In this document: piece by piece, positions 13,109 through 34,368 of the stretch
How the letters are laid out: every line of letters starts with the position of its first letter
How positions within the stretch are numbered: position 1 is the first letter of the stretch
NCBI GenBank assembly: GCA_030612005.1
Contig: JAUWOU010000012.1
Span: 1-41,625 of the forward strand
From: Candidatus Thorarchaeota archaeon
GTDB taxonomy: Archaea; Asgardarchaeota; Thorarchaeia; Thorarchaeales; Thorarchaeaceae
Length of the DNA: 41,625 nucleotides
Direction: 5' to 3'
Program-made: the position numbers and the translations under genes
The notes under the pieces: model-generated
Databases searched by the model: none
Told to the model about the DNA's origin: nothing
Seen by the model: the letters and a program-made list of their open reading frames with translations, nothing else

Positions 13109-14899
13109 GTGTTGATCTTGACTGAAGCTGATAAACTGCGTTCTCCGATTGTTACTGTACTTGGTCATATCGACCATGGAAAAACATCGCTTCTAGACAA
13201 GATGCGAGGAACGGGAGTACAAGCTAGAGAGGCAGCTGGAATAACACAACATATCGGTGCATCTTTCTTTCCCACTGAAACGATTCTATCAATATGTGGA
13301 GATCTTCTCAAGGCTGTCAATACTGAATTGACTATTGATGGACTTCTCTTCATCGATACACCTGGACACGAAGCTTATCTCAATCTAAGAAGACGTGGAG
13401 GTGCTATAGCAGACATCGCTATTCTTGTAGTTGATATAAACGAAGGTCCTCTCACCCAGTCTTACGAATCATTGAAGATTCTACGTTCTGGAAAAACACC
13501 CTTCTTGATTGCCGCAAACAAACTTGACAAAGTACCAGGCTGGAGAAAAAAAGAGGGATTGTCGCTCTTTGATGCCATTAAGGCACAGGGAATATCAACC
13601 CAATCTGAAGTTGATAGAAGAATTTACGAAATTGTGGGTGCACTCTCTGCAAACGATATTCAGTCAGAACGGTTTGATCGTGTTGAAGATTTTCAAAAAA
13701 CTGTGGCTATCGTACCCACAAGCGCTAAGACCGGTACTGGAATTCCAGAGCTTCTGATGGTTCTATCAGGTCTTACACAGCAATACATGAAAGATCGACT
13801 TACTATTTCCACAGGACCAGCGATAGGTGCTGTTCTTGAAGTAAGAGAAGAAACAGGCCTTGGGCTTACTCTTGATACAATCATCTATGATGGAGTATTG
13901 AAGAAGACTGACACTATTGTTGTCGGTGGACTTGATGGAGTGATTGAGGCTAAAATCAGAGCATTACTTTTACCAAAACCTCTTGATGAGATTCGCGATC
14001 CCAAAGAGAAATTCACACATGTTGACATCGTACATGCAGCAGCAGGTGTCAAGATAGTAGCCCCAGATATTGAAGGTGTTGTGGCAGGTGCACCTGTCTA
14101 TGCTGTGGAGGACCCTGAAAAACTCGAAGAAATCAAGCAAAAGGTCAGAGATGATCTTAGTTCAATCAGAATTCAGACTGATAAATCTGGAATCATTGTA
14201 AAGACTGATACATTGGGGTCTCTAGAAGCTGTAACACAATTCTTACAGGAACGGGATGTTCCAGTACGATTTGCTGATGTGGGTCCAATTGTGAAGCGTG
14301 ATATCGTTGAGGCGCAAGCTTCTGGTGATGGAGATCCACTTAATGCAGTAGTTCTAGGATTCAATGTGAAGATTGCATCAGAGATAGAAGATATTGCTGC
14401 GGAACTAGGTGTTGAGTTATTCTTGAGTGAAGTCATCTATAGATTATACGATGAATATTATGCTTGGTTAATTGTGAAGAGAGAGCAAGCAAAAGCCGAA
14501 TCATTGAGTTCAATTATTAGGCCTGGAAAAATCGTACTCATTCCGGAATATGTGTTTAGACATAAGAATCCAGCAGTTGTGGGTGTTAAGGTTCAGGGAG
14601 TAATAAGGCCAAGAACTGGATTAATCAATGAAGATGGAAAGAGAGTTGGTACGATTCTTCAGATTCAGGACCGTAGCGTGACAATAGATGAAGCTACAGA
14701 TGGAATGGAAGTTGCAGTATCAATACGCGGACCTACTATTGGACGACAGGTCAAAGACGACGAGATTCTGTATACAGATGTTCCTGACAAACAGATACTG
14801 GCTATCAGAAAGAAATTCCTCGACGATCTCTCTCCTCCAGAAAAGGAAGTCTTGGAAGAACTCACTACCATTAAGCGTGCCGCTGGTTCCTTTGTATAA
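13109..14899 (+). CDS. infB: Translation initiation factor aIF5B (IF-2 gamma-like GTPase)
   Basis: RSPIVTVLGHIDHGKTSLLDKMRGTGVQAREAAGITQHIGASFFP; DTPGHEAY; NKLDKVPGW. Confidence 0.95.
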   Translation: MLILTEADKLRSPIVTVLGHIDHGKTSLLDKMRGTGVQAREAAGITQHIGASFFPTETILSICGDLLKAVNTELTIDGLLFIDTPGHEAYLNLRRRGGAIADIAILVVDINEGPLTQSYESLKILRSGKTPFLIAANKLDKVPGWRKKEGLSLFDAIKAQGISTQSEVDRRIYEIVGALSANDIQSERFDRVEDFQKTVAIVPTSAKTGTGIPELLMVLSGLTQQYMKDRLTISTGPAIGAVLEVREETGLGLTLDTIIYDGVLKKTDTIVVGGLDGVIEAKIRALLLPKPLDEIRDPKEKFTHVDIVHAAAGVKIVAPDIEGVVAGAPVYAVEDPEKLEEIKQKVRDDLSSIRIQTDKSGIIVKTDTLGSLEAVTQFLQERDVPVRFADVGPIVKRDIVEAQASGDGDPLNAVVLGFNVKIASEIEDIAAELGVELFLSEVIYRLYDEYYAWLIVKREQAKAESLSSIIRPGKIVLIPEYVFRHKNPAVVGVKVQGVIRPRTGLINEDGKRVGTILQIQDRSVTIDEATDGMEVAVSIRGPTIGRQVKDDEILYTDVPDKQILAIRKKFLDDLSPPEKEVLEELTTIKRAAGSFV

Positions 14900-14944: not shown

Positions 14945-15241
14945 AATTGCGATGGGTAGGGCCGGGTCGTTTGGCGCGACCTGTTATCGGTAATGTCAAT
15001 AGCCGAGGCCAGTAACCTGCATCGAGAATGAACCGGAACGTCGTTGGGTCCAGCTGCAGGACGTTGACATGCGGTCTCTGGAGTCTGTCTCTGACATACC
15101 AGCATTCGTAGGTTTGCTGTGATTGTCATAAACTTCCGAACCGAGTCAGGCCCTGGCGGGAACAGCTCTAAGGAAGAGTGGTGGAGCCCCAGAGGTGGCC
15201 GCATTGAGAATTGCGCTGATCAGCCCTTCGATTACCGACAT
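14945..15241 (+). ncRNA. Signal recognition particle RNA (archaeal 7S RNA)
   Basis: 5' domain TAGGGCCGGGTCGTTTGGCGCGACCTGTTATCGGTAA...AGCCGAGGCC matches the archaeal helix 2-4 signature. Domain IV GAACCGAGTCAGGCCC-TGGC-GGGAACAGCTCTAAGG is at about 15138-15172. Ends approximate. Confidence 0.85.
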
Positions 15242-15323
15242 TCGGAATGTGGGAGCTGTCGCACCTTCTTATCGTTAACCTACAACAATGTTTAAGAGAA
15301 AAATACGGTCAGCACGTTCTCAA

Positions 15324-15466
15324 GCTCAGGTATCCAAGCCTGGTATGGAGCTGGATTGCTATAGGCAGCTATACGCAGTCCTGCAAACATCCAGTGTGCT
15401 TTGCACTCGAGAGTTCAAATGACTTCATGATTTCCATGAGGTTTGAAATTCTCTCCCTGAGCGCCA
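15324..15466 (+). tRNA. tRNA-Ser(GCT) with two BHB introns and encoded CCA
   Basis: Acceptor GCTCAGG/CCTGAGC + G73 + CCA; D-stem TCCA/TGGA; anticodon stem CTGGA/TCCAG, loop TTGCTA-A; variable arm GTGC-TTT-GCAC; T-arm GAGAG-TTCAAA|T-CTCTC. Intron 1 is 15362-15388 (37/38; BHB central helix TTGC/GCAA, bulges TAT and ACA). Intron 2 is 15420-15449 (T-loop; central helix TTCA/TGAA, bulges AAT and ATT). Predicted mature length 86 nt. Confidence 0.92.
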
Positions 15467-15474
15467 TCTTTTCT
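15454..15474 (+). repeat. 21-bp att-like repeat, copy 1 (3' end and trailer of tRNA-Ser)
   Basis: TCCCTGAGCGCCATCTTTTCT, identical to 17092-17112. Confidence 0.85.
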
Positions 15475-15546
15475 CAGATTATGTTTGGATACGTGAAACG
15501 AAAGAAGCAATAATACCAATACTGTAAGTATTCTTGTGGTTGGGTT

Positions 15547-16563
15547 ATGGAAGAGTCACAGGAGAAGAGAGAGTGGATATATAGAAACAGAAAGCTGGTT
15601 GCTGGTTTAGTTATCATATTCATACTATTACAAGTGACCATTACTGTATTGACTATATCATTGAATGATGATGAAATTTCTGATATCAATGTTCCAAGAT
15701 CGACTATTCCAGATAGCTGTGTCTATCCTGCTACCTATGATATTGAATACAATACATCCTATTGGATTAGAGGTAACTATGTTCCACTCATCAATATATC
15801 AGAAGCAGCAGCAGTTGATGCTGCTATGACATTTCTCACTGTGTATCTACCCGAAGAATTGTTGACAGGGCTTCGAGTAGACACAAATAATGAATTTTGG
15901 CCAGGCAGGCCAGAACTCACTACAGACTGTTTCCCTCGGTGGGGAATGACTCTTATTTCTGATTATATGAGAGCAAATGTATGGGTTAATGCCCTAAGTG
16001 GAAAAGTAGTACAATTCAGTCTGGGTTCCTATAATACATCAGTCTTTGTATTTGAAAGCGTTGAAACAGTGGAAGAAACTGAAAGCATTGTTATAGATTT
16101 CCTTCAATCACAAAATTATACATTACTCCCAGATGCAGTCTATGATGGCACTGATCTATCATCATTATCAGAATATGCTTACCACACTCTGACATTTCAT
16201 CAGGTGGTTGATGAGATTCTAATAGGCATTGGAAAAATTACTTTCCATATTGATGCGACTTATGGATTAATCAAATATTTCAGATACAGATGGATTGATC
16301 TTGATGAGATTCCAGTAGATAGAATTCTTCCCGTTGGAGAAATCCACAATATTGTACTGGAAGCAGACAATGATACATTTTTGATTACAATTCGAAATAC
16401 TGAGCTGCGCCTTAACATAATCGGGTTTGATCCAGATTCATCGGATTTTGTAATGCGACTTGTGTATGAAGTAACATTGACGCCGATTTGGGGAGTTGGT
16501 GGAGATTTGTACACAGTTGATGCTATATCAGGTGAGATAGTAAGTATAGATGTATTGTTTTAA
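15547..16563 (+). CDS. Membrane-anchored/secreted hypothetical protein; an in-frame stop precedes a C-terminal TM anchor
   Basis: 338 aa with N-terminal signal/TM (VAGLVIIFILLQVTITVLTIS). After TAA (16561-16563) the same frame continues SSFLGVYEPYFGVAAMLLVAVVLSGAVRVVKRRRLSISME* to 16686. Confidence 0.75.
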   Translation: MEESQEKREWIYRNRKLVAGLVIIFILLQVTITVLTISLNDDEISDINVPRSTIPDSCVYPATYDIEYNTSYWIRGNYVPLINISEAAAVDAAMTFLTVYLPEELLTGLRVDTNNEFWPGRPELTTDCFPRWGMTLISDYMRANVWVNALSGKVVQFSLGSYNTSVFVFESVETVEETESIVIDFLQSQNYTLLPDAVYDGTDLSSLSEYAYHTLTFHQVVDEILIGIGKITFHIDATYGLIKYFRYRWIDLDEIPVDRILPVGEIHNIVLEADNDTFLITIRNTELRLNIIGFDPDSSDFVMRLVYEVTLTPIWGVGGDLYTVDAISGEIVSIDVLF

Positions 16564-16710
16564 TCATCATTTCTGGGAGTTTATGAACCTTATTTTGGAG
16601 TTGCAGCTATGCTTCTGGTGGCAGTGGTGTTGTCGGGAGCTGTTCGAGTTGTAAAAAGAAGACGATTATCAATATCTATGGAGTAACATTTTGCAAAGAT
16701 TTATCATTAA

Positions 16711-17058
16711 GTGACAAAATGTGATGTTGGAGGGTTCGTAACGTTGCAACAAGAAGCGCAGCAGATGTTCGGTATTAGTGGAATTGGAATTCTAGGTATG
16801 GGTCTGGTAATTGTTATCGTGCTGTTAGTTATCGGGTTCAGAGAGAAAGAAGATGTTTTCAGAAAAGAACGATTCATTCGAGCAGCAGGGGTAGTACTCG
16901 GAGTATTGATTATAGTCACAGGATTCACTTGGTATAGCACCGTGGTGGCAGTCGCTACAACACCTATGACCTTTGAGGATGTACTCATCATAACTGGGTT
17001 TTCTTCCATAGGCGGTCTGATTTCAGGCATTTCCTGCTATTTTCCAATTAATAAATAG
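16711..17058 (+). CDS. Small hypothetical membrane protein
   Basis: 115 aa with three or more hydrophobic segments. Confidence 0.5.
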   Translation: MTKCDVGGFVTLQQEAQQMFGISGIGILGMGLVIVIVLLVIGFREKEDVFRKERFIRAAGVVLGVLIIVTGFTWYSTVVAVATTPMTFEDVLIITGFSSIGGLISGISCYFPINK

Positions 17059-17091
17059 AAAGTAAATCTTAGGTTGTAATCTGAAAGTTAT

Positions 17092-17112
17092 TCCCTGAGC
17101 GCCATCTTTTCT
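17092..17112 (+). repeat. 21-bp att-like repeat, copy 2 (detached tRNA-Ser 3' fragment)
   Basis: TCCCTGAGCGCCATCTTTTCT, exact copy of 15454-15474 without the rest of the tRNA. Confidence 0.85.
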
Positions 17113-33736: not shown

Positions 33737-33845
33737 TGGCGGGCTCGGTGGGATTTGAACCCACGGCCAGTCCCCGAAGCAAGAGATGACTCTCCTGTTC
33801 ATCAGGTTAAAAGCCTGCTGCGCTACCTATCTGCGCCACGAGCCC
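33737..33845 (-). tRNA. tRNA-Lys(TTT) with a probable non-canonical intron near the anticodon-stem/variable boundary; encoded CCA
   Basis: Minus strand GGGCTCG-TG-GCGC-AGATAGGTA-GCGC-A-GCAGG-CTTTTAA-CCTG-[~32-nt insertion]-TGGCC-GTGGG-TTCAAAT-CCCAC-CGAGCCC-G-CCA. Confidence 0.87.
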
Positions 33846-34201: not shown

Positions 34202-34368
34202 GCCCCTGTAGTGTAGTCCGGTTAGCATTCAAGACTGTCAATCCAAGCGGTTGACGCTTGAAGCAGACCTCTTGAGACTCCCTCATTAGTGAGGGAGGCG
34301 GAGACAGATCCGGGTTCAAAAGAGATTCATGATTTCCATAATCTCTGAATATCCCGGCGGGGGCGCCA
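34202..34368 (+). tRNA. tRNA-Asp(GTC) with three predicted introns and encoded CCA
   Basis: Acceptor GCCCCTG/CGGGGGC + G + CCA; D-stem GTGT/GCAT; anticodon stem CAAGA/TCTTG, loop CTGTCA|C; T-arm CCGGG-TTCAAA|T-CCCGG. Intron 1 is 34241-34268 (37/38; BHB central CTGT/GCAG). Intron 2 is about 34276-34306 (variable region; hairpin CTCCCTCA-TTAG-TGAGGGAG). Intron 3 is 34321-34351 (T-loop; central TTCA/TGAA, inner GAGATT/AATCTC). Predicted mature length about 77 nt. Confidence 0.9.

Follow-up and report, generated by a model that had tools for sequence, protein, structure and literature searches.

Position 59/60 is a listed intron position in tRNA, and multi-intron tRNA genes are documented in the Crenarchaeota (PMC4090602). 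In the Thermoproteales, canonical and noncanonical bulge-helix-bulge (BHB) introns occur together in one tRNA gene, up to three per gene (Sugahara 2008; Fujishima 2010; reviewed in PMC4090602). Among Asgard archaea, the accessible text of a 2024 report on the Atabeyarchaeia and Freyarchaeia gives introns in 92-95% of tRNA genes, often noncanonical, with more than half of the genes carrying multiple introns; neither T-loop introns nor the tRNA introns of Thorarchaeota are analysed in that text (PMC11291895). A literature search for Thorarchaeota tRNA introns, conducted mostly outside subscription journals, returned no paper.

The locus described here is a tRNA-Ser(GCT) gene of a Candidatus Thorarchaeota archaeon (GenBank assembly GCA_030612005.1; 3.64 Mb, 271 contigs, ~91% complete). 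It was read as a functional archaeal gene with two independent BHB introns in its precursor, one at 37/38 and the other at 59/60, and with an 86-nt tRNA as the spliced product (probability about 0.95). Like the multi-intron tRNA genes of the Thermoproteales, it combines different BHB introns in one gene and uses position 59/60, and it differs from them in phylum. With the Atabeyarchaeia and Freyarchaeia genes, as far as the accessible text of that report describes them, it shares an Asgard host and multiple, noncanonical introns, but it belongs to another Asgard class. The gene is real, looks functional and is easily missed by annotation software; given the crenarchaeal records of 59/60 and multiple introns and the Asgard records of multiple noncanonical ones, its kind was already known in archaea. 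Gene anatomy, spliced product, covariation, intron presence or absence in relatives and enzyme presence were all established by computation.

Gene structure and splicing signals

The window, i.e., the whole stretch of DNA analysed, comprises 41,625 nt of contig JAUWOU010000012.1. The gene and its flanking elements are as follows.

15291..15299 (+), putative TATA-like promoter element TTTAAGAGA (TTTATGAGA in some orthologues), ~30 nt 5' of the tRNA, conserved in orthologue sequences
15324..15466 (+), interrupted tRNA-Ser(GCT) gene, CCA at 15464-15466
15324..15361 (+), exon 1: 5' strand of the acceptor stem, D arm, anticodon stem and loop up to position 37
15362..15388 (+), intron 1: 27 nt, canonical position 37/38, precisely absent in orthologues G007 and G034
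15389..15419 (+), exon 2: 3' side of the anticodon stem, variable arm, T stem, T-loop up to position 59
15420..15449 (+), intron 2: 30 nt at T-loop position 59/60, with a strict BHB; cleanly missing from 10 of the 17 other orthologues
15450..15466 (+), exon 3: T60, then the 3' strands of the T stem and acceptor, discriminator G and CCA
15467..15473 (+), T-rich tract 3' of CCA, likely terminator, form conserved in orthologues

The gene sequence contains GCTCAGG and, further on, CCTGAGC followed by GCCA. After removal of both introns, ARAGORN called the remaining 86 nt as tRNA-Ser(GCT) with an encoded CCA. Every stem is present in the spliced sequence, with a GTGC/GCAC variable arm and a TTCAAAT T-loop, and the long variable arm, GCT anticodon, G73, 7-bp acceptor stem and CCA place it among class II serine tRNAs. 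A blind search, in which the BHB-like introns of the region were removed in all combinations and the products scored with ARAGORN, returned exactly 15362-15388 plus 15420-15449. The original prediction stands: its coordinates are exact, and the identity of the tRNA, the two introns and their junctions are upheld.

Both introns follow the strict hBHBh' form, with a 4-bp central helix, flanking 3-nt bulges and a cut after the second bulge base. The T-loop BHB was reproduced as first described, with an outer helix of 5 bp (GAGAG/CTCTC), a TTCA/TGAA central helix, two 3-nt bulges and an inner helix of 9 bp (two G-U). When this grade was defined as an outer helix of at least 5 bp, an inner helix of at least 9 bp and a central helix without G-U, no second BHB of the kind occurred on either strand of the window, and none in 2,000 dinucleotide shuffles of the region. 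The prediction had called both motifs perfect, which holds for the T-loop BHB; in the anticodon BHB the bulges are strict and the TTGC/GCAA central helix is perfect, but the inner helix has only 3 continuous base pairs, and folded in isolation this BHB reaches -7.4 kcal/mol versus -15.1 kcal/mol for an alternative hairpin. Permissive BHBs comparable to it arose ~1.5 times per shuffled region, so that taken alone it is no better than chance, and its support therefore comes from its position, the orthologues and the spliced product.

The expectation that standard finders may miss the gene was borne out for ARAGORN and for Rfam. ARAGORN found no tRNA in the whole window, its intron option likewise missed the unspliced gene, and the Rfam model RF00005 recovered only the tRNA at 33740-33845. 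By design, tRNAscan-SE 2.0 copes with multiple and noncanonical introns (PMC8450103). Rfam matches to KCNQ1OT1, mir-84 and snR87 near the gene scored far under the gathering score and were taken as chance.

Directly 5' of the gene lies an archaeal SRP RNA (14950-15261, +), and an aIF5B-like protein is encoded at 13109-14899, with 81-87% identity to Candidatus Thorarchaeota MAGs. On the 3' side, the end of the tRNA gene plus the downstream T tract recurs as a 21-nt exact direct repeat (15454-15474 and 17092-17112, +). The 1.6 kb between the copies holds two ORFs (one weakly PepSY-like) unmatched downstream of the tRNA in the compared locus stretches, and no integrase was recognised between the repeats (15454-17112). 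The repeat pair resembles an attachment-site scar at a tRNA locus.

Intron distribution and covariation in related genomes

Searched at the DNA level, 47 genomes from this archaeon's order yielded 18 readable tRNA-Ser(GCT) orthologues, including that of the source genome (G000). The T-loop intron is present in eight (G000, G029, G021, G032, G025, G022, G033 and G007) and cleanly absent in 10, among them G011, G006, G026, G017, G024 and G030, while the 37/38 intron is present in 14/18. The G034 orthologue is intron-free, and G007 has the T-loop intron only, its anticodon loop being identical to the predicted exon junction. Three orthologues, G010 (L107), G031 (L110) and G036 (L106), have a 31-nt D-loop intron, replacing or accompanying other introns; that of G010 was read by eye after the automatic procedure had left it unresolved. 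For G021, G032 and G007, the automatic choice of 28- or 32-nt T-loop cuts, which gave other loop lengths, was replaced by a 30-nt cut giving a 7-nt loop. As read from the sequence of G021, the BHB register shifts the cut one base earlier (58/59) and leaves the mature TTCAAAT unchanged. Intron gain and loss take place within one genus.

These orthologues also bear on whether the T-loop insertion might persist in the mature tRNA and lengthen its T arm, with the anticodon intron alone being spliced. The insertion does fold into a stable hairpin that stacks on the T stem, and its length is almost constant in relatives. Retention would, however, abolish the contact between T-loop and D-loop, an established element of tRNA structure; the cut register is moreover that of a strict BHB, and removal restores, as had been predicted, the 7-nt TTCAAAT exactly as found in orthologues without the insertion. 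Retention was accordingly considered the least probable of the readings, and removal of both introns is preferred.

Covariation in related genomes, proposed earlier as a check, was seen as compensatory change in both the mature tRNA and the T-loop BHB. For the mature tRNA (10 orthologues), 98.8% of cells were paired, with 17 compensatory cells versus 4.8 in shuffled alignments, slid controls pairing at 32-52%, and two-sided changes at nine pairs. For the T-loop BHB (seven orthologues), 96.0% were paired, with 18 compensatory (two-sided) cells versus 4.9 shuffled and slid controls at 32-56%; six of the nine inner-helix pairs covary, and the central helix is relaxed in two of the seven (one pair missing). 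The anticodon BHB (nine sequences) showed two-sided changes at two pairs, both in the inner helix, its exon helices being uninformative because they are invariant.

Decay was weighed against function on the same evidence. The gene could be a tRNA pseudogene whose insertions are no longer spliced, with AGC and AGU read by another tRNA-Ser missing from the assembly, and its going unrecognised by ARAGORN and the Rfam model fits this, as does the incompleteness of the assembly, which at ~91% may lack a second Ser(GCT) gene. Against this, every stem and every invariant tRNA position is intact, the exons as well as the BHB show compensatory changes, and the promoter-like element and CCA are conserved. 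A second, uninterrupted tRNA-Ser(GCT) was sought, as suggested with the prediction, and apart from the gene itself the assembly contained no full-length match to the mature sequence of 86 nt, the remaining matches being short and mostly to the T-arm end. A pseudogene is thus very improbable, and a functional gene with two spliced introns remains the reading adopted.

Endonuclease and ligase

Two tRNA_int_endo (PF01974) genes are present in the source genome and in 41/47 genomes of the order. The first (188 aa, L143:319-885) encodes a splicing endonuclease alpha subunit with a full-length match to Aeropyrum pernix EndA alpha (E 3e-44), in which the active-site Tyr, His and Lys are aligned and K43-P44-K45 lies opposite K44-P45-R46 of the A. 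pernix Crenarchaea-specific loop. Broad specificity has been linked to a Lys in that loop that precedes Pro or Val and then a basic residue (PMC12397907; PMC6379350). The second subunit (212 aa, L144:393-1031, -) aligns without the catalytic His. Two paralogous subunits, one of them without the catalytic His, and the loop signature identify an (alpha-beta)2-type endonuclease with the Crenarchaea-specific loop, its assembly and activity being predicted from sequence. An RtcB ligase is also encoded. Given the loop signature, the two subunits and RtcB, this genome has the type of enzyme that deals with noncanonical introns. The likeness to the crenarchaeal (alpha-beta)2 endonuclease (A. pernix, 3p1z) extends to the alpha match, the aligned Tyr/His/Lys, the K-P-(K/R) motif and a separate gene for the second subunit; in contrast, the second subunit of the source genome has its best matches among other splicing endonucleases (5x89, 1a79) rather than with a crenarchaeal beta subunit.

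In the proposed pathway, a two-intron tRNA-Ser precursor would be transcribed, and the two-subunit endonuclease with the loop signature would cut both BHBs after the second bulge nucleotide, the same enzyme presumably serving the T-loop BHB. RtcB would join the three exons into the 86-nt tRNA with a normal TTCAAAT T-loop.

T-loop introns in other tRNA genes

Two further interrupted tRNA genes were located in the window.

33740-33845 (-), tRNA-Lys(TTT) with a ~32-nt insertion in the variable region
34202-34368 (+), tRNA-Asp(GTC) with three introns: 34241-34268 in the anticodon loop, ~34279-34309 in the variable region and 34321-34351 in the T-loop

The tRNA-Asp gene was missed by ARAGORN and by Rfam at gathering score, and no strict BHB was found for the variable-region insertion of tRNA-Lys. 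Elsewhere in the source genome, a candidate tRNA-Sec(TCA) was located (L135, G000:C225:7133-7218).

A covariance model of the T-loop intron (R1) located further introns of that form in many tRNAs, across 30/47 genomes of the order. Clean ARAGORN calls after splicing were obtained for Ser, Lys, Thr, Asp, His, Pro, Phe, Leu, Glu, Val, Ile and Arg tRNAs, so the T-loop intron extends to at least 12 tRNA identities of Thorarchaeota. A second model with the hairpin loop masked (R2) matched 37/47 genomes of the order and 131/232 genomes of the phylum (E up to 0.001). For most of the non-family matches examined, ARAGORN accepts the surrounding sequence as a tRNA after removal, some of these identities resting on ARAGORN's own intron option and being uncertain. 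Across the phylum, the matches were densest in one family (f27, 4 to 11 per genome). The intron structure covaries strongly over 35 sequences, a set chosen by structural model. The conserved hairpin loop ANTTC seen in R1 matches had been considered as a single-lineage signature; this was dropped because the R1 training set was rich in that loop and the new matches of the loop-masked R2 had mixed loops.

A separate question is that of origin, namely whether T-loop introns spread by recent tRNA-to-tRNA copying within a genome or reflect old gains followed by vertical descent and loss. Such copying between tRNA genes has reportedly been proposed for the Thermoproteales. Here, introns of the same form sit in many tRNA identities, the Ser and Asp T-loop introns of the window share TTCATGATTTCCAT (top 0.7% of different-tRNA pairs), and the universal T-loop TTCA would let any copy pair its TGAA. 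Within-genome intron pairs were, however, no more alike than between-genome pairs, 438 of 2,000 label shuffles of this model-selected set reaching the observed mean, and selection by a model trained on such introns inflates apparent similarity. Recent copying is thus unlikely. Recent transposition between tRNAs is not supported; an older spread may have occurred. It is tentatively suggested, at long odds, that Asgard T-loop introns are a single old family, which colonised many tRNA genes by virtue of the TGAA it carries, the complement of the universal T-loop TTCA; the T-loop would then be a universal insertion site at which the host tRNA has no need to adapt.

Implications

The tRNA set of a Thorarchaeota genome is corrected by a needed serine tRNA that the tools tried had missed, and intron-dense tRNA genes extend past the two Asgard classes reported. 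Eukaryotes have their closest known relatives in the Asgard archaea, so that noncanonical introns together with a two-subunit endonuclease bear on the origin of the eukaryotic TSEN and of 37/38 introns. With presence and absence recorded among closely related species, intron gain and loss become directly traceable.
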